A stretch of 43,646 nt of DNA, taken from positions 1 through 43,646 of IMG/VR virus record IMGVR_UViG_3300017963_003268; one strand, given 5' to 3'. This document shows, piece by piece, positions 711 to 35,585 of this stretch (position 1 is the first letter of the stretch; every line of letters begins with the position of its first letter). A model generated the notes under the pieces. That model saw only the letters and a list, made by a program, of their open reading frames with translations, had not been told where the DNA came from and made no database searches. Position numbers and translations under genes: made by a program. This DNA comes from a virus.

Positions 711-1568
711 ATGGCAGATGTTTTTACTGAATTTATTCCTGAAATTTGGTCTGCTAGAATACTTGAAGAAAAGAAAAAGGCTCATGTGTTCGCACAATTA
801 GCCAATACTGATTATCAAGGTGAAATAACAGCAGCAGGCGATCAGGTAAGAATTCCACAGGTAGGATTACCAACCGTAAATAGTTATACAAGAAATAACT
901 TTTCAAATGGTCTTACAAAAGAAACTGCTAATGTTGCAAGCATGACATTAGTAGTAGATCAAGAAAAATATGTAAATATTTTGCTTGATGACGTTGATAT
1001 AAAACAGTCAAAACCAAACTTTATACCAACATTACAAACAAATATTGCTTATCAATTGGCCGATAGCCAAGATCAATATATATCGGGACTAGCAACAGAG
1101 TCCGGAATAACATCAACTTCTAACAGTGCTAGTTCAAGAGTATTGATAGGTTCTAGTAACATCAAAACTGAACTATTGTTAATAGGGAAAGAATTTGACG
1201 AGGGTAACGTTCAAAGAAACGGCCGATATGCTGTCATAAATCCAGCACTAATGTTTGAATTGATTGACGCTGGCGTATTAGAGCAATCTAATAACGATAC
1301 TACTTGGATGAATGGATATATTAACGATGCGTATGGTTGGAAAATTTATGTTTCTAACAATTTAACATCAACAGCTTCTTCATCGGTTAATTTATTTTTT
1401 GGTGTTGGGAATGAGTCTATTACAATGGCTGAACAAATAACACAAGTCAAAATGGGTGAATTAACACAAGAGGGATTCGGTATGTATATCAAAGCTCTTC
1501 ACGTATATGGTGCAAGAGTTATTCCAGACAGAACAGGTATAGTATATGCCTTAGTAGCAAACGCGTAG
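711..1568 (+). CDS. Major capsid protein
   Basis: A 285-residue protein preceded by a good ribosome site (AGGAG, 7 nt before ATG). It starts MADVFTEFIPEIWSARILEE, a form typical of HK97-fold coat proteins of the P22-coat-like group, and shows the usual mixed alpha/beta pattern with a C-terminal stretch on mutability to the particle shell (GARVIPDRTGIVYALVANA). It follows a scaffold-like gene and precedes structural genes. It should form the icosahedral head shell. The fold is inferred from sequence style and context. Confidence 0.82.
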   Translation: MADVFTEFIPEIWSARILEEKKKAHVFAQLANTDYQGEITAAGDQVRIPQVGLPTVNSYTRNNFSNGLTKETANVASMTLVVDQEKYVNILLDDVDIKQSKPNFIPTLQTNIAYQLADSQDQYISGLATESGITSTSNSASSRVLIGSSNIKTELLLIGKEFDEGNVQRNGRYAVINPALMFELIDAGVLEQSNNDTTWMNGYINDAYGWKIYVSNNLTSTASSSVNLFFGVGNESITMAEQITQVKMGELTQEGFGMYIKALHVYGARVIPDRTGIVYALVANA

Positions 1569-2050: not shown

Positions 2051-3112
2051 ATGACAAAAGAAAAAAGGACAACAAATGATTACATTAAGGATTTAACCGG
2101 CAAAGAAATGCCAAAAGTAGAAAAAAAAGGTAAAGAAGTTAAAAAGATAATTAGTATCTTAGGTACTGCCGGAAGCAGAAGCATGGCTAATTGGGGTGAT
2201 TCAAGATGTGAATTTTGGGGGGTTGCTCATTGTTTGTTATTAAGCGATATAAAAAAGTTAGATAAGGTCTTTGAAATTCACTTGCCATATATATATAATC
2301 AGGAGATATCACCGTTTTCTCAAAAACCTATTATTTATCATGCAAACAAAGAATATAGCTTAGGTAAATATCAAAAAGATAATTTTGGTATGCCTTGTAG
2401 AGACATTAAAGATATAACAGCAATATTGCCCGTACAAGACAATAATATTAACAAATATGAAATTTTCCCACGTGAAGAAATTAAAGCTAAATATAAAGAT
2501 TTATTGCCGCCGAGCGATGCTTTTTATGCAACTAACTCTATTGCTTGGATGATATGTTTAGCAATTGAACAAAAACCCGATAGAATCGAACTATGGGGAA
2601 TACATTTAGAAACCGATTCAGAGTGGCAATATGAGCGCCCTTGTGTTGAGTTTTGGTTGGGCATTGCAAGAGGCATGGGGATAGAAATTTACATTCCAGA
2701 AGCAGCCGATTTGTTAAAAGCTTATCACGAATACGGATTTGCCGATATTGAAGTTAGAAGGAAAAAACTAAAAGTCAGGTTAGATAATTTTCAAAAAAAC
2801 ATACAAGATTATACAAGTGAAATTAACAGATTGTTGACTAGAAAAAAAACACTAATAGAAAACATGAGAATATCTTTTAAAGATAAAGTAGTTCAAATGG
2901 AAAATGAGAAAAAGCGGTTACAAGAAGAGATAAAAAAATATAATGAAAAAAATGAAGAAGATAAAATAAAGTTTGAAAAAAATATTAAAGATAAAATGCA
3001 AAAAGAAGTAATTAATTTAGATGTTAAAATCAGGCAATTAGAAAATAGGGCAAGCGCTTTTCATGGGGGCAGAGAGCAAATAGAATATGAAATTAAACAA
3101 TTAAATGCATAG
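2051..3112 (+). CDS. Rossmann-like phage protein with C-terminal coiled coil
   Basis: 353 residues in two parts. Residues about 30-230 contain a glycine-rich strand-turn (SILGTAGSRSMANWG), FYATNSIAWMICLAIEQ, and ELWGIHL, resembling a family of phage proteins found near capsid genes that look like nucleotide-sugar or MptE/DUF115-like Rossmann domains. Residues about 235-353 are a highly charged Lys/Glu coiled coil. Substrate and role are unknown. It might modify or decorate the virion. Confidence 0.5.
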   Translation: MTKEKRTTNDYIKDLTGKEMPKVEKKGKEVKKIISILGTAGSRSMANWGDSRCEFWGVAHCLLLSDIKKLDKVFEIHLPYIYNQEISPFSQKPIIYHANKEYSLGKYQKDNFGMPCRDIKDITAILPVQDNNINKYEIFPREEIKAKYKDLLPPSDAFYATNSIAWMICLAIEQKPDRIELWGIHLETDSEWQYERPCVEFWLGIARGMGIEIYIPEAADLLKAYHEYGFADIEVRRKKLKVRLDNFQKNIQDYTSEINRLLTRKKTLIENMRISFKDKVVQMENEKKRLQEEIKKYNEKNEEDKIKFEKNIKDKMQKEVINLDVKIRQLENRASAFHGGREQIEYEIKQLNA

Positions 3113-3121
3113 GAGCAAAAA

Positions 3122-3346
3122 ATGAAAATGAAAGTTAATGAGTTTGAAGTAGCAAACAACCTTACGGCACAAAATGTTACTATAACAAGCTCAACCGATA
3201 CAACAAGCATTACAGTTGTAACGGCTATAACAACTAGCGAATCTACACAATTCCAATTCAACACACAAACAATATATTTTTCGGGTGGCGTTTGGACAGA
3301 TTTGGGCGCAGAATCAACAAGTACAGTAACTACAAGCACCAGTTAG
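3122..3346 (+). CDS. Small Ser/Thr-rich structural protein
   Basis: 74 residues, with about a third Ser and Thr, and a C-terminus ending in STVTTSTS. It lies 9 bp after the previous gene with an AGGAG site and is followed by another small beta-rich gene. Probably a virion surface component; no family recognised. Confidence 0.5.
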   Translation: MKMKVNEFEVANNLTAQNVTITSSTDTTSITVVTAITTSESTQFQFNTQTIYFSGGVWTDLGAESTSTVTTSTS

Positions 3347-3355
3347 GAGTTTTAT

Positions 3356-3640
3356 ATGGCAATACACGAGCCTTCACAAACATATTTATGGCAATTGGCC
3401 AATACATCGGGCGGTGCTGGGTGTGAGATAGTAACAGATACAGAGGCTCATATTGGTGATTATAGAGTTATCCAAATTGCAAGCACAGATGTTGTTTTTA
3501 CGTCTATAACATCAACGTTAGTAACTAATAGTAGCGAAGCAAGTTCTTTGACCTCACTACCGATAGGTTTTACTATTTTATCGCCGTGCACAAGCGTTCA
3601 AGTAGACTCGGGGAATATAATACTATATAAAGAAGTATGA
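3356..3640 (+). CDS. Small beta-rich structural protein
   Basis: 94 residues with a hydrophobic/Ser/Thr alternating pattern expected for beta strands, and an AGGAG ribosome site. The stop codon overlaps the start of the beta-propeller gene (ATGATG), implying translational coupling. Probably a capsid decoration or fibre component; function not recognised. Confidence 0.5.
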   Translation: MAIHEPSQTYLWQLANTSGGAGCEIVTDTEAHIGDYRVIQIASTDVVFTSITSTLVTNSSEASSLTSLPIGFTILSPCTSVQVDSGNIILYKEV

Positions 3641-19888: not shown

Positions 19889-20770
19889 CTATAATTTTAA
19901 CAAAGCTTCTCTCATTTTGTATATGATTAATTTTTTTTCCCCCATTCGCCTTGCCTCTTTTTTTGTTATTTTAGACCATTCTTTTTTTGTTCTTAATTGA
20001 CAACCAATTTGTATATGATTGTCAAAAATAATTATTCTATATGGAATATTTCCGAAAATTCTAATATATTTTTTTGTAACAATATGTTTAATTTTCAGAT
20101 CACCTTTGCAATTCAGATCACCTTCGCAATTCAGATCACCTTCGCAATTCAGATCACCTTTGCAATACAGATTACCTTCGCAAATCAGATTACCTTTGCA
20201 AATCAGATAACCTTCGCAATTCAGATAACCTTTGCAAATCAGATTACCTTCGCAAATCAGATTACCTTCGCAAATCAGATAACCTTTGCAATTCAGATCA
20301 CCTTCGCAATACAGATTACCTTCGCAATACAGATAACCTTCGCAATTCAGATCACCTTCGCAATTCAGATAACCTTTGCAATACAGATCACCTTCGCAAT
20401 TCAGATCACCTTCGCAAATCAGATTACCTTTGCAAATCAGATCACCTTTGCAATACAGATTACCTTCGCAATACAGATTACCTTCGCAATTCAGATCACC
20501 TTCGCAATTCAGATCACCTTCGCAATACAGATTACCTTCGCAAATCAGATTACCTTTGCAAATCAGATAACCTTCGCAATTCAGATAACCTTTGCAAATC
20601 AGATTACCTTCGCAAATCAGATTACCTTCGCAATTCAGATTACCTTCGCAATACAGATTAATTGTAATTTTTACATCTACATTAAAATTTAAATCTTTTT
20701 CTAATTCATAACTATTATAACCATTATGTTCATATTTTTTTTTTATTTCTTCAATCTTCTTTATTAGCAT
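19889..20770 (-). CDS. 31-repeat Cys-containing solenoid protein
   Basis: 293 residues. Residues about 40-225 hold 31 perfect 6-residue units of the form [NDY]-L-[INY]-C-[EK]-G (18 nt each) with no interruption. Leu and Cys recur every 6 residues, like a right-handed or left-handed beta-solenoid ladder. A basic C-terminal domain of about 60 residues follows. AGGAG precedes the ATG, which overlaps the frameshifted radical SAM end. Units 3-10 are repeated almost exactly as units 23-30. Function unknown. Confidence 0.75.
   Translation of the reverse strand: MLIKKIEEIKKKYEHNGYNSYELEKDLNFNVDVKITINLYCEGNLNCEGNLICEGNLICKGYLNCEGYLICKGNLICEGNLYCEGDLNCEGDLNCEGNLYCEGNLYCKGDLICKGNLICEGDLNCEGDLYCKGYLNCEGDLNCEGYLYCEGNLYCEGDLNCKGYLICEGNLICEGNLICKGYLNCEGYLICKGNLICEGNLYCKGDLNCEGDLNCEGDLNCKGDLKIKHIVTKKYIRIFGNIPYRIIIFDNHIQIGCQLRTKKEWSKITKKEARRMGEKKLIIYKMREALLKL
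20104..20657 (-). repeat. 18-bp coding tandem repeat array
   Basis: An array of 18-bp units inside the preceding-described solenoid gene. The bases that vary are at the [AGT]AT codon, the ATT/AAT/TAT codon and the GAA/AAA codon; the CTG, TGC and GGT codons are fixed. It is coding, not CRISPR: there are no separate unique spacers. Both strands are open because the unit lacks stops. Confidence 0.85.
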
Positions 20771-22822: not shown

Positions 22823-23137
22823 CTATGGTTTTACAAAATAAAAATATTCTAATCTAATATACAACTTCTTTTTTTTCTCTATATATTTTGCCTGTATATG
22901 AGTGTCATTAGACATATTATTAGCAACATATTTTTTGATATAATTATCCCAAAAAGGATCGTATTCTTTCAATACTTCTAATAGTTCGTCTTTTGTTACT
23001 GCTTCACCTGGCACATCAAATCTAGCTAACATTTCAATATAGTTTTCTTGTTGTTCATACTCTCCTATATAGCTTTTAAAAGTTTCTAGATTTTCGTCTA
23101 AATATTTGCAAATTTCTTCATCTCTAAATACGCTCAT
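22823..23137 (-). CDS. Hypothetical protein
   Basis: 104 residues, acidic N-terminal half and basic C-terminal half. No recognised motif. It follows the previous gene by an ATGA-type overlap at 23134 and precedes the zinc-ribbon gene with an AGGAGG-type leader. Confidence 0.5.
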   Translation of the reverse strand: MSVFRDEEICKYLDENLETFKSYIGEYEQQENYIEMLARFDVPGEAVTKDELLEVLKEYDPFWDNYIKKYVANNMSNDTHIQAKYIEKKKKLYIRLEYFYFVKP

Positions 23138-23346
23138 TTCTCATCCTCCCATTTTTTGCCTGTGTGTTTTTCTATTAGTTCAATGCTATTTATATATGTT
23201 GTATCATTAGTATACTTTGCTGGTATATCTGATCCATATTCTTTGGCATATCTAATCAATGCCTCAATCAATTCTTTATTCTCTTTTTCAAGCTTTTTTA
23301 TTTTAAGTAAAAATGATTTTAATAATAAACTCATTTCAGTATCCAT
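23134..23346 (-). CDS. Small coiled-coil phage protein
   Basis: 70 residues from the ATG at 23346 (an earlier ATG at 23367 is possible), placed after an AAGGGGA ribosome site. Heptad-rich region LLLKIKKLEKENKELIEAL is followed by a tail EKHTGKKWEDEK seen in similar small phage proteins. Overlaps both neighbours. Confidence 0.5.
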   Translation of the reverse strand: MDTEMSLLLKSFLLKIKKLEKENKELIEALIRYAKEYGSDIPAKYTNDTTYINSIELIEKHTGKKWEDEK

Positions 23347-23749
23347 TTTTTTCCCCTTCTTGTTCATAATATAATATTAGTTTATAATATTTTTTTGTTT
23401 CTATTATTGTATAGCTTATATCGTATATACAATCGCAAATATCTATCCAAAAAGGCATAAGATGATTTTGGTCTAAGTATACAGAAAGCTCATATTTTGT
23501 AATTCTCATATTTGGAATTAAATAATATTTTTCTAAAAATCTTATACCATTTTGATTATCATATTCATATTCTTTTGATAGAAACTTATTATAATTAGCA
23601 TATAAATAACTTTCTATTTGATTTAGTCTTTCTTTTGTTATACTTGTGTTTGATTGTATTTCGTTGTATAAACTTTTAATACTGTTTAATATAGTGCTAT
23701 CAATTTTTAATTTTTTTTCATTTGCAATAAAATTATTTATATTTTTCAT
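23336..23749 (-). CDS. Hypothetical protein
   Basis: 137 residues from the ATG at 23749, preferred because AGGAGG precedes it and the earlier ATG at 23800 would overlap the upstream gene. Tyr-rich and helical. No family recognised. Confidence 0.5.
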   Translation of the reverse strand: MKNINNFIANEKKLKIDSTILNSIKSLYNEIQSNTSITKERLNQIESYLYANYNKFLSKEYEYDNQNGIRFLEKYYLIPNMRITKYELSVYLDQNHLMPFWIDICDCIYDISYTIIETKKYYKLILYYEQEGEKNGY

Positions 23750-23786
23750 AATATACCTCCTAAAATAACCCCTCCCCATTGATGGA

Positions 23787-24068
23787 TTATTTTTTTGCAA
23801 CCTTATATGCGTTAATTGCTGACTTGCCCATTATGTCAAGTATAATGAATGGTATATAGGCAAGCTTAACGGAATCAACTAGACCCTTTACATTTTTTGG
23901 GGTCTCGGTTAAAATATCGTATACACTTACATCGTCCGGACTTTTCTTTTCAACCTGTTTTAATACATCTTTTTCAGATTTATTAAGTGTCTTTATTAAG
24001 ATTATAAACCCTAATAGTATAATTGCACCAATAAAACCAAATAAAAATACGATCATTCCTGTACTCAT
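23787..24068 (-). CDS. Single-span membrane protein
   Basis: 93 residues with a strong N-terminal membrane helix (MIVFLFGFIGAIILLGFIILI) and a charged cytoplasmic part, with a weaker hydrophobic stretch near 70-80. AGGTAAC-type site. Part of the leftward operon; function unknown. Confidence 0.55.
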   Translation of the reverse strand: MSTGMIVFLFGFIGAIILLGFIILIKTLNKSEKDVLKQVEKKSPDDVSVYDILTETPKNVKGLVDSVKLAYIPFIILDIMGKSAINAYKVAKK

Positions 24069-32430: not shown

Positions 32431-33100
32431 ATGAATGTCGTATATAATTGTGATTGCATGGAATACATGAAAGATATTGAAGATAAATGTTTTGATTTAA
32501 CATTAACTGATCCTCCGTATAATGTAGGCTTAGACTATAATTCATATAATGATAATAAAGATGATTATTATGAATGGTGTGATATATGGTTTAAAGAGTT
32601 ATTAAGGATTAGCGATACTGTTGTGTTTACACCTGGGTTTAATAATATTAAACATTGGATTAAAAAAGACTATAAAGAAATCATTATTTGGATTAAAAAA
32701 AAATTCTTGTACTAGAAATTCTCTAGGCGGTTTTCATATATGGGAACCTATTATGTTTTTTGGAAAAATTCAAAAAAAAATTATGAATAATGTTATAGAA
32801 CATCCTATTTCTATTCAAGAAAATGCTAAATTTCATAGATGTCCAAAAAATTTAAAATTTTGGAAAATATTATTATCAAAAATTATAAGCCCACCTGCAA
32901 ATATATTTGATCCGTTTTTAGGGAGTGGCACATCTCGTATAGCTTGTTATGAATTAGGCTTTGACTTTATAGGATGTGAGTTTGACAAGGATTACTGGGA
33001 AGCGCAAGAAAAAAGATTCATGGAGTTTAAAAAGAAATTTCATAATGAATTTTATATAGGTGAAGCTGATTTATTTAAAGGGCTTGACAACCCATCATAA
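32431..33100 (+). CDS. DNA adenine/N4-cytosine methyltransferase, frameshifted at A9
   Basis: The first frame (32431-32715) has a DPPY motif at residues 27-30. The second frame, ending at 33100, has motif I FDPFLGSGTSRIACYELG. The order DPPY then FxGSGT is that of class-beta methyltransferases. The two frames join at a run of nine A (about 32695-32703). One A less restores IIWIKKNSCTRNSLGG. It is a slippage site, assembly error or recent break. Likely protects or marks phage DNA. Confidence 0.75.
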
Positions 33101-33699: not shown

Positions 33700-33727
33700 T
33701 TGACATACAAAAATAATGTGCTATAAT
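33700..33727 (+). promoter_or_regulatory. Promoter for structured RNA cluster
   Basis: TTGACA, 16-nt spacer, TATAAT. The expected start (about 33734-33736) coincides with the first base of the first structured RNA (33736). Confidence 0.85.
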
Positions 33728-33735
33728 TAAATATA

Positions 33736-33840
33736 GTTGCTATGTGGCGGACAGATGCTAACGGCCGGTAAGAGTAATAGGCGTCAAAAAAGGTTGGCTA
33801 GCGCCGAATGAAAGGCTAGTAAAGGACTTACCATAGCAAC
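33736..33840 (+). ncRNA. tRNA-like structured RNA A (105 nt)
   Basis: GTTGCTATG at the 5' end pairs with CATAGCAAC at the 3' end (9 bp), like an extended acceptor stem. Next is a GGC...GCC hairpin and a GGTAAG/CTTACC helix closing the rest, inside which GGCG/CGCC can pair. It begins at the expected promoter start. No CCA end or clear anticodon arm is visible, so a normal tRNA is unlikely. Confidence 0.62.
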
Positions 33841-33916
33841 TATTTTATATTCATCAATAGCGAAAGTGGGCTTCAAGTTCTGTTTAGCGAAAGTTAACTA
33901 GCTATTTTTGAATTAA

Positions 33917-34026
33917 GGCAGGGTGGCGGAATAGAGACGCCTCATGCGCCAAATAAGACATGTGACATTTAAGTATTGTGCGCCCATAAGTCGCAAAAAC
34001 TGTAAGAATCGAATCTTACCCCTGCC
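33917..34026 (+). ncRNA. tRNA-like structured RNA B (110 nt)
   Basis: GGCAGGG/CCCTGCC forms a 7-bp acceptor-like stem. TGGCGGAATAGAGACGCC resembles the start and D-arm of tRNA-Leu (TGGCGGAATTGGTAGACGC type) but lacks the D-loop GG. A GTAAG/CTTAC T-arm-like hairpin has an 8-nt loop AATCGAAT. About 60 nt lie between the arms, too long for a standard anticodon and variable arm. Followed by T-rich sequence. Confidence 0.6.
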
Positions 34027-34047
34027 TTTTATTTAAGTTTTTTGATA

Positions 34048-34250
34048 GTTGCTATGTGGCGATATTGCCCTTAATTAGGTTCGAGTCCTAAGTCTGGGGA
34101 AGCGATAATTAAAAGTTATCATCTAGGGAACTAGCCCCAGACATGGTCACAGGGACATCATGTAAGGTGACTATACTAGTAACATCGTAGTGATGTAAAA
34201 CAATAATGATAGCCAAAGCGGGCTACTAGTCAAATCCTTACCATAGCAAC
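34048..34250 (+). ncRNA. tRNA-like structured RNA C (203 nt, permuted core)
   Basis: Same 9-bp outer stem as A and D. A GGC/GCC hairpin follows. Then comes a canonical T-arm TTAGG-TTCGAGT-CCTAA (34075-34091) directly followed by GTCTGGGG (34092-34099), which pairs with CCCCAGAC downstream (34135-34142). Two small hairpins lie between them. A GTCAC/GTGAC arm follows, and GTAAGG (34162-34167) pairs with CCTTAC (34236-34241). The upstream T-arm plus 3' acceptor-like strand is a circularly permuted tRNA-like order. Confidence 0.58.
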
Positions 34251-34279
34251 TATTTTATTATAAAAAAAGGAGAATTAAT

Positions 34280-34525
34280 ATGAATAATTTTAAAATTGAA
34301 TTAGGTACAAAAGTAAAAAGCAATATATCGGGCTTTAAGGGTATTGTTGTATCAAGATCAGAGCATCTTAATGGATGTTATAGATATTGGGTTGCACCAA
34401 AAGTTGATAAAGATGGTAAGTTACCTGATGGTTATTGGTTTGATGAGCATGAATTAGAAATTATTGAACTTAAAATAAAATCAAAGAAGGTTAATACTGG
34501 TGGATTTCCATCAAATATAAAATAA
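34280..34525 (+). CDS. SH3/KOW-like phage protein, paralogue
   Basis: 81 residues: ELGTKVKSNISGFKGIVVSRSEHLNGCYRYWV closely follows the pattern of the leftward protein at 18982-19248 (LGQRAKEKITGFSGIIVARIDYLTGCNRYSL). Two paralogues of opposite strand in one window suggest duplication or two related acquisitions. GGAG site before the ATG. Confidence 0.65.
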   Translation: MNNFKIELGTKVKSNISGFKGIVVSRSEHLNGCYRYWVAPKVDKDGKLPDGYWFDEHELEIIELKIKSKKVNTGGFPSNIK

Positions 34526-34603
34526 AAAAAATGGAGCCACAATCCTTAACTGTGTTGGCATCTTTGAAGATTAGATGAAGGGACAAGACCTGAAATTAAA
34601 ATA
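34526..34603 (+). other. Short non-coding stretch upstream of RNA D
   Basis: Contains GCCA...TGGC pairing (near 34542-34560) and a 15-codon ORF without a ribosome site. It may be part of the RNA cluster or processing signals; nothing certain. Confidence 0.3.
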
Positions 34604-34741
34604 GTTGCTATGTGGCGGAATAGAGACGCCCTATGCGAAGTAGTAACTTTGCCATAAGTAATACGCGTGGCTTATGGGTAACAGAGCGAGAAAACATAGA
34701 GCTATGATCAAGATGTAAGTATCAAATCTTACCATAGCAAC
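34604..34741 (+). ncRNA. tRNA-like structured RNA D (138 nt)
   Basis: Outer stem GTTGCTATG/CATAGCAAC as in A and C; GGCG-GAATAGAGA-CGCC hairpin as in B; T-arm-like GTAAG-TATCAAAT-CTTAC. The insert contains CTATG/CATAG pairing and a strong CCATAAG/CTTATGG hairpin. Same frame as the others but with its own insert. Located between the KOW-like gene and the GIY-YIG gene. Confidence 0.6.
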
Positions 34742-34763
34742 TATATTTAATATTGGAGTAATT

Positions 34764-35585
34764 ATGCAAGTATTTTGTCCATACGCAAATCCACAAAAAA
34801 TGGGTTATATTTATAAAATCACAAATGTTATAAATAATAAAATATATATAGGACAAAGAAAAGGATTACCAAACGAAACTAAAAATTACTATGGTTCTGG
34901 AAAAATCATAAAAAGAGCAATCGTAAAATATGGGGATAAAAATTTTATAAAAGAAATATTAAATATTTCATTTAGGCATAATTTAAATTTTTTAGAAAAA
35001 TTTTGGATAAATTATTTTAAACAAAATAATTTTATATTATATAATATAGGGGATGGCGGTTTAGGAAATAATGGCGGATATAATAAAGGGAAAAAATTAT
35101 CAATAGAAACAAAAAATAAAATCAGTAAGGCATTACAAAATATTAAAAGGTCAGAAAATTTTAAAAATAAAATAAGTAAAACATTAAAAAGAAAATATAA
35201 AAACGGAGAACGATTACCAGCAAATTTAAATAAAAACATGTCTAATAAAACAAAAATAAAAATGAGTATTTCTCATAAGGGTATGGTGTTTTCAGAAGAA
35301 CACAAACAAAAATTAAGTCAATTACATATAGGAAAACCAAAAAGCAAAGAACACAAACAAAAATTAAGGGAAGCTAAGTTAGGGAAAAAACAATCAAATA
35401 TCCATATTGAAAAAAGAATAGAAAAAATAAGAGGTAAAATATATATAACTAAACAAGAAAAATGGGATAGAATAGGTAAAACACAAGAAGAATGTTTGTG
35501 TGGATGTGGATTAAAATGTCATAAATTATTTTATCATGGGCATAATTCAAGATATAAACATCCTAGTAAATATAAAGGAGAATAA
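34764..35585 (+). CDS. GIY-YIG homing endonuclease
   Basis: 273 residues. GYIYKITNVINNKIYIGQRKG (13-33) is the GIY-YIG core; NUMOD3-like helices rich in KLSQLHIGKPKSKEHKQKL repeat through the centre; and a CxCGCGLKC-type end. The first 12 residues (MQVFCPYANPQK) do not belong to the GIY-YIG domain but match the start of the next gene's family, suggesting insertion near the 5' end of a gene. GGAG precedes the ATG. Confidence 0.85.
   Translation: MQVFCPYANPQKMGYIYKITNVINNKIYIGQRKGLPNETKNYYGSGKIIKRAIVKYGDKNFIKEILNISFRHNLNFLEKFWINYFKQNNFILYNIGDGGLGNNGGYNKGKKLSIETKNKISKALQNIKRSENFKNKISKTLKRKYKNGERLPANLNKNMSNKTKIKMSISHKGMVFSEEHKQKLSQLHIGKPKSKEHKQKLREAKLGKKQSNIHIEKRIEKIRGKIYITKQEKWDRIGKTQEECLCGCGLKCHKLFYHGHNSRYKHPSKYKGE

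Follow-up and report, generated by a model that had tools for sequence, protein, structure and literature searches.

Phage genome elements with a tRNA-like frame and an interior that is replaced as a block

Uncultured bacterial viruses carry a structural family of genome elements, the reality of which is near certain, in which a tRNA-like frame encloses an interior (here called the cargo) that is exchanged in its entirety while the locus stays the same. This exchange is the strongest fact to emerge from the analysis and was invisible to the preliminary description of a single stretch of viral DNA from which the work started. The elements are members of an RNA family absent from every library searched and, to our knowledge, no other RNA family combines a constant tRNA-like frame with a replaceable hypervariable interior.

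The stretch in question, referred to as the window, is a 43,646-base record of an uncultured virus, and all four tRNA-like RNAs reported for it (units A to D, Table 1) are found where they had been placed. Units A, C and D indeed share an outer stem which differs from that of B. This stem, GTTGCTATG/CATAGCAAC, extends outwards to a 12-bp closing helix, ATAGTTGCTATG/CATAGCAACTAT, with 12 of 12 pairs formed in each of the three units. Its tRNA-like portion comprises 7 bp (TGCTATG/CATAGCA), to which 5 bp are added on the outside, while the acceptor of B (GGCAGGG/CCCTGCC) is fully paired and directly flanks the D- and T-arms. Since a tRNA-like acceptor has 7 bp and A, C and D exceed it by their outward extension, unit B, which had been taken for the odd one out, is actually the standard form. 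Both B and D consist of acceptor, TG, a D-arm GCG-GAATAGAGA-CGC, cargo, a T-arm GTAAG-8 nt-CTTAC and the second acceptor strand. The GTAAG/CTTAC helix is present in all four units as described. In B and D it is a T-arm with an 8-nt loop; in A it is a plain helix devoid of a T-loop, and in C, where it forms the second T-arm stem (GTAAGG...CCTTAC), the loop contains an insert of about 60 nt. An insert at the same point of the T-loop was read by eye in L144. By the 9-bp definition of the stem, the total lengths of 105 (A), 110 (B), 203 (C) and 138 nt (D) agree with the 105-203 nt given originally. Folding z-scores amount to -2.2, -3.6, -5.2 and -3.8 for A to D, respectively, and the 5' motif GTNGCTATGTGGCG is represented by three exact copies and one with two mismatches where 0.11 are expected. 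The possible pseudoknot of A was read by eye and its score reaches only z = +1.0. Units B and D are present also in L003, and a 63-kb record (G003) with 97.6% identity to the window in BLAST pieces harbours the same four units, all of them identical.

Table 1. Positions of the units, their parts and adjacent features; positions refer to the window unless a locus is named.
Feature	Position	Strand	Description
Promoter match	33700..33727	+	sigma-70 type, TTGACA-16-TATAAT, TG before -10; 12/12 consensus matches
Unit A	33733..33843	+	12-bp closing helix, D-arm-like start, without T-loop
Unit A helix	33767-33772 with 33827-33832	+	GGTAAG/CTTACC
Unit A possible H-type pseudoknot	33780-33783 with 33802-33805; 33798-33801 with 33816-33819		GGCG with CGCC; CTAG with CTAG
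Unit B	33917..34026	+	standard frame: acceptor GGCAGGG/CCCTGCC, TG, D-arm, cargo, T-arm
Unit B D-arm	33926-33940	+	GCGGAATAGAGACGC
Unit B T-arm	34002-34019	+	GTAAG-AATCGAAT-CTTAC
Unit C	34045..34253	+	12-bp closing helix, short D-like hairpin, two T-arm elements
Unit C internal T-arm	34075-34091	+	canonical, TTAGG-TTCGAGT-CCTAA
Small ORF	34280..34525	+	81 aa, phrog_16275 (unknown function), between C and D
Unit D	34601..34744	+	12-bp closing helix, D-arm, cargo, T-arm
Unit D D-arm	34615-34629	+	GCGGAATAGAGACGC
Unit D T-arm	34715-34732	+	GTAAG-TATCAAAT-CTTAC
Homing endonuclease gene	34764..35585	+	PHROG homing endonuclease, E 2e-36
Twister-P1 match	L151:2099-2151	-	sub-gathering
Twister-P1 matches	L121:5102-5154, 3279-3331	+	sub-gathering
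Twister-P1 matches	L127:2772-2826, 3525-3580, 2065-2120	-	sub-gathering

The perfect promoter match lies upstream of unit A and ends 5 bases from its stem. Promoter-like sites are not enriched in the unit region as a whole, 8 being present where 6.4 are expected, and its plus strand yielded no terminator-like site. The homing endonuclease gene, which starts 19 bases 3' of D and whose product matches NUMOD3 above and GIY-YIG SegE below the Pfam cutoff, is a possible driver of exchange; its family is not common to the neighbourhoods of other units. DnaB and the tail proteins of the window phage match only those of distant phages. The sequence between A and B (33855-33912) could form another small hairpin RNA, which contains AGCGAAAGT twice and has the end GCTATTTTT. 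A DNA methylase gene (32431-33100) is made up of two overlapping ORFs in different frames, apparently due to a frameshift near an A run.

Relatives were collected from IMG/VR, which was scanned for patterns of the D-arm, the T-arm and the closing stem. Counting the window, 28 viral records contain 31 units in which a loose descriptor resolves both arms; among the 31 are the near relatives L126a/b and L122/L140 as well as the doubtful L426 (T-stem 4/5 pairs, acceptor 6/7), which failed both frame tests. No usable scripted frame was obtained for nine of 40 attempted units (L141_2, L149, L151, L421, LE1, A, C, L144 and L135); LE1 was recovered separately, L149, L151, L141_2 and L144 were resolved by visual inspection, and L421 and L135 stayed unplaced. 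In the common frame the acceptor has 7 bp and is followed by a UG linker and a D-arm resembling that of tRNA-Leu; where a tRNA would have its anticodon and variable arms there are 40-195 nt of cargo, and after these comes a T-arm of 5 bp, the loop of which usually has 8 nt. In B, D and the relatives, acceptor and 5-bp T-stem are joined as in tRNA, A and C deviating at the T-arm. The base following the acceptor varies among units, as does the acceptor sequence itself, which nevertheless remains paired. The proposal of a phage-encoded tRNA-like family is thereby supported. The lack of an encoded CCA, which had been listed as an anomaly, is uninformative, as 16 of 16 ordinary tRNA genes of related records likewise lack it.

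Among isolated phages and plasmids, a search by DNA similarity brought out only Leptospira phage LE1, in which a unit with the acceptor CGCAAGG/CCTTGTG, the D-arm GCGGAAAATACAGACGC and the T-loop TGTGAAC is situated between two genes (LE1 20090-20215). It is but a probable family member by its sequence, because the BLAST match has E = 8 and the frame was found with a T-loop motif added for LE1. A match in a Streptomyces plasmid is without frame, as are both matches from a scan of genome contigs. Among the matches listed for one further pattern scan, chance and coding sites predominate, and another scan used a T-arm which, among the matches listed, occurs in ordinary tRNAs too. G014 contains a further unit with the fully paired closing stem ATAATTACTATA/TATAGTAATTAT. 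Small units of 67-113 nt with the same closing stem, devoid of D- and T-arm, were observed in G004 (about 22900-23860), G011 (17144) and G014 (40223), alongside a repeated RNA-like segment GGCGTATTAACTTTAG...TATGCCTTT. L318 (minus strand, position 845) and L297 (position 597, plus strand) contain 128-nt frames with a tRNA-Leu-like D-arm and a canonical T-arm which ARAGORN does not call; they are possible further members outside the count.

A scan with the D-arm 16-mer TGGCGGAATAGAGACG returned 29 stretches with 30 D-arm occurrences. The frame, i.e. a matching acceptor plus T-arm, is present at 15 of the 21 newly found loci, compared to 0.035 expected from dinucleotide-preserving shuffles; beyond these loci, L008 and L117 are without frame. 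The conservation of the D-arm in L410-L430 reflects the way these loci were selected, namely through that arm. For the analysis of pairing, 29 frames were reduced by five of other length and two duplicates to an alignment of 22 distinct strings and 52 columns with 12 acceptor sequences, the frames having been chosen partly by their pairing. Within this set 98.2% of 330 cells are paired, 72 cells show two-sided changes versus 23.2 in shuffles, and such changes occur at 10 of the 15 pairs. The covariation score of 0.620 compares to 0.205 for shuffled frames (reached in 0 of 500) and to 0.05-0.13 for slid partners, while the number of pair types, 25 versus 22.2 in shuffles (48/500), is not clearly raised. 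Because of this partial choice by pairing we ran a non-circular test in which T-arms were picked by T-arm criteria alone and the acceptor was ignored. Exactly one 8-nt T-arm was then present within 290 nt at 20 of the 30 16-mer occurrences. The 13 different acceptors obtained in this way have on average 6.77 of their 7 positions paired, compared to 4.02 with permuted partners (0/5000). These results show that selection for RNA pairing acts on the units, which are genome elements built on a tRNA-derived chassis. Loss of the outer-stem pairing without compensation, which the preliminary description had named as speaking against its proposal, was looked for in the relatives and not found.

The resemblance of B and D to the start of a tRNA-Leu, likewise noted at the outset, can be stated more precisely. 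The family D-arm GGCGGAATAGAGACGC is that of the tRNA-Leu gene predicted by ARAGORN in L283 (GGCGGAATAGGTAGACGC) minus GT, so that one G of the D-loop GG is gone. The D-loop GAATAGAGA, as had been said of B and D, is without this GG in both of them and in most units, many of which were found by GAATAGAGA itself; a few units keep it, e.g. L223, L156_1 and L141_2. T-loops, for which 7 and 8 bases were tried, comprise 8 bases instead of 7 in 28 of the 31 units and mostly read N[AG]TCRAAY. As judged by eye, units which retain the GG (L223, L141_2) tend to have a 7-base T-loop, with L156_1, L122 and L140 as exceptions one way and L415 and L419 the other. We infer that the contact between D-loop and T-loop has been rebuilt in this family.

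That the cargo of one locus can be wholly different in closely related phages is observed in G002 and G006, the identity of which is 95.6% over BLAST pieces (all identities of phage pairs are sums of such pieces, overlaps being counted more than once). The flanks of L002 in G002 and of L149 in G006 are identical at 100 of 100 positions on each side, and the stem with its unusual G is identical as well; the cargos of 83 and 70 nt resemble each other no more than shuffles do. In the related phages G004 and G011 (91.7% over BLAST pieces), L121 and L151 share the same promoter region and flanks identical at 95 of 100 and 85 of 95 positions around cargos, 86 and 181 nt long, which are unrelated. 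L417/L423 and L419/L420 also point to replacement at the same locus, with less clean flanks. At three other loci of G004 and G011 the unit is kept at 89-95% identity, and a second unit common to G002 and G006 is identical. Since, moreover, all four units are identical in the window and G003, replacement is not constant. A near-identical unit (L126a/b, one base differing) is present at two sites of G007, which fits a mobile cassette.

In 35 units the cargo measures between 40 and 195 nt. In an all-against-all comparison at E<0.01, similarity is detected only between L126a and L126b, between L122 and L140 and within short pieces of L423, L424 and L426. The G+C content of the cargo exceeds that of its own record in 14 of 15 cases. 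A protein-coding role was rejected as the longest ORF among 15 cargos has 24 aa, and so was an antisense role towards the own phage, for which none of 15 cargos gave a match beyond the best of 30 shuffles. Nested folding is slightly better than in shuffles (mean z -0.71, 22 of 31 negative); as this advantage is mild, some cargos may be unstructured. By a home-made score, 30 cargos have a pseudoknot potential somewhat higher than that of shuffles (mean z +0.83), L427 providing an example readable by eye. A canonical T-arm hairpin occurs in four of 35 cargos versus 0.07 expected from mononucleotide shuffles. One cargo class was encountered in four records: in L002 it is surrounded by the complete frame, in G004, G011 and G013 immediately by the closing stem, so that cargo and frame are separable. 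The predicted fold of this class shows two-sided change in none of 38 pairs and an unfavourable covariation term, determined from three rows only, of which that of G004 lacks its 5' end.

ARAGORN detects no tRNA in the window units and the Rfam tRNA model none in the window, in keeping with the reported absence of a normal anticodon arm, the place of which is taken by the cargo. Rfam gave no match to the window at gathering scores and, at E<=5, two chance-level matches to families other than tRNA; the tmRNA model RF00023 has no match in the window, and no catalytic core of group I or group II introns was found in the stretches searched. Membership in a known Rfam family was rejected, as these stretches yielded real tRNAs and otherwise sub-gathering matches, none within a unit. 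No description of the family was found in the literature, which is weak evidence of absence as subscription journals lay mostly outside the search.

A tRNA gene predicted by ARAGORN is present in 7 of 34 unit-bearing loci, including L141, L223, L145, L122 and L140, and in the window there is none; in L141 the unit is located directly 3' of a tRNA-Ile. A survey of ORFs of at least 70 aa within 2.5 kb upstream and 3.5 kb downstream, bounded by the locus ends, revealed no neighbour protein family at more than 3 of 36 units or clusters, whereupon an obligate partner gene was rejected; the result is compatible with a partner provided by the host. TTGAC-TATA promoter-like sites precede 3 of 33 units, counted without chance control. 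Counted in the same way, TTTGAA is found in the 45 bases preceding the acceptor in 8 of 33 units (L413, L414, L415, L420, L140, L145 and B and D of the window). In L414, L415 and L420 this motif extends to TTCTTTGAA, which we take to resemble rRNA boxA signals.

Among known systems, the closest precedent, albeit without shared frame, is T4 rnaC/rnaD. These RNAs are small, stable, encoded beside tRNA genes and, according to PMC9697503, late transcripts of unknown function checked by northern blot. They adjoin segB, a GIY-YIG endonuclease gene, and the 3' end of rnaC is a canonical T-arm. In contrast, the frame search finds no equivalent D-arm in them (no TGGCGG); with their annotated ends only 5 of 7 acceptor pairs form, a 7-pair candidate of 91 nt lying within rnaC. 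With phage tRNA-Leu the units have in common the acceptor length, U8, the D-arm sequence and the position of the T-arm; they differ from it by a D-loop two bases shorter, a T-loop usually one base longer and 40-195 nt of other sequence instead of an anticodon arm. As in tmRNA, including its permuted form, tRNA-like ends enclose a long insert, which in the units, however, contains no ORF above 24 aa (15 cargos) and, in the window, gives no match to the Rfam tmRNA model. Inhibition of host defence through mimicry by phage non-coding RNA has been reported for pseudo-ToxI of phage PhiTE (PMC3475682) and for the RNA anti-CRISPRs termed Racr (PMC10651486), and phage tRNAs have been proposed to counter anticodon nucleases (PMC10264068). 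Pseudo-ToxI and Racr copy a known host RNA, and the accessible portions of these reports describe no tRNA chassis.

The reading which we consider best, and which we hold tentatively on the strength of the sequences, is that the units are tRNA-framed phage RNAs whose swappable interiors serve as decoys or inhibitors of host proteins that act on RNA. RNase P, RNase Z and the CCA-adding enzyme act on the stack of acceptor and T-stem, which would open the frame to processing and protection; the RNAs would then be expressed, matured and stabilised in the manner of tRNA, and the conserved ends of the chassis would offer the homology for cargo exchange. Less certainly, each cargo might act as decoy or inhibitor of a host RNA-acting protein such as a defence ribonuclease, a toxin or a tRNA-targeting effector, with an arms race keeping the cargo in change while the chassis stays constant. 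A constant frame with changing cargo is what decoys or inhibitors engaged in an arms race, as pseudo-ToxI and Racr are known to be and phage tRNAs facing anticodon nucleases are proposed to be, would show, and a decoy role makes a good hypothesis. The complete modular system, i.e. a tRNA-derived chassis with modified elbow, matured by host tRNA enzymes and bearing interchangeable anti-defence RNA effectors exchanged by recombination within the chassis, is a possibility we put forward with greater reserve. A selfish or mobile cassette, the ends of which would serve as targets of recombination or homing while endonucleases or recombinases move a cargo useless to the phage, could explain the 12-bp inverted repeat common to otherwise different units, the near-identical unit at two sites of G007 and the homing endonuclease gene directly after D. 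It appears unlikely, since it would spread one cargo, yet nearly each unit has its own, since pairing is kept across 12 acceptor sequences and in the non-circular test, and since the neighbourhoods share no family of recombinases or endonucleases.

Rather improbable in our view are also regulators of host takeover, that is, chassis-stabilised small RNAs pairing with host mRNAs or binding host regulators: the cargos are replaced as whole blocks instead of in a short seed and, within the own-phage genomes compared, show no antisense match, although the variable cargo could track variable host targets and the perfect promoter match at A as well as the TTGAC-TATA (3/33) and TTTGAA (8/33) sites, counted without chance control, would suit such RNAs. 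The tRNA-like acceptor, U8, D-arm and T-arm, together with the permuted tmRNA predicted near the unit of L419, might suggest unusual functional tRNAs or tmRNA-like RNAs which are aminoacylated and used for translation or ribosome rescue. This is very unlikely given the missing anticodon arm, the failure of ARAGORN and of the Rfam tRNA model to recognise the units, cargo ORFs of at most 24 aa in 15 tested and the variation of both the acceptor sequence and the following base. Decaying tRNA-Leu pseudogenes, finally, would account for a D-arm two bases short of that of the L283 phage tRNA-Leu and for the T-arm pieces in 4 of 35 cargos; they are hardly credible, as pairing kept despite sequence change is the opposite of neutral decay, the same modified loops recur in different phages and flanks identical at 100 of 100 positions surround unrelated cargos. 

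If, as the decoy reading supposes, the cargos are inhibitors, behind each of them would stand an RNA-acting target in the host that is uncharacterised, and one short pattern suffices to collect many cargos. The natural cargo swaps also provide a handle on the role of stable RNAs in phage tRNA clusters, such as rnaC and rnaD of T4. Many uncultured bacterial viruses appear to make small RNAs which retain both ends of a tRNA around an insert that differs in almost each copy, in what looks like an RNA-based cargo system.

Some further RNA-like features were observed. Several matches to the twister-P1 ribozyme in unit-bearing phages (Table 1) reach E-values down to 5e-6, all of them below the Rfam gathering score, and some are repeated within one phage; between two of them, L121:4252-4421 (plus strand) gives a sub-threshold match to the isrG sRNA (E 4e-5). 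In L375 (1600-3100) and L382 (300-450), phage tRNA arrays are interleaved, as seen by eye, with other possible structured RNAs, which have A-rich/T-rich closing stems ending in a T-run and CCTGCG before the 3' stem. L382 furthermore contains, near a family member, a tRNA predicted by ARAGORN (1282-1356, minus strand) whose TTA anticodon would make it a possible UAA suppressor, and, adjoining a family unit, a short tRNA-like RNA without anticodon arm (796-885, minus strand) with a weak match to the tmRNA model (E 4e-5, below gathering). The permuted tmRNA gene predicted in the viral contig L419 (1832-2203, minus strand) is situated about 220 bases from the family unit.
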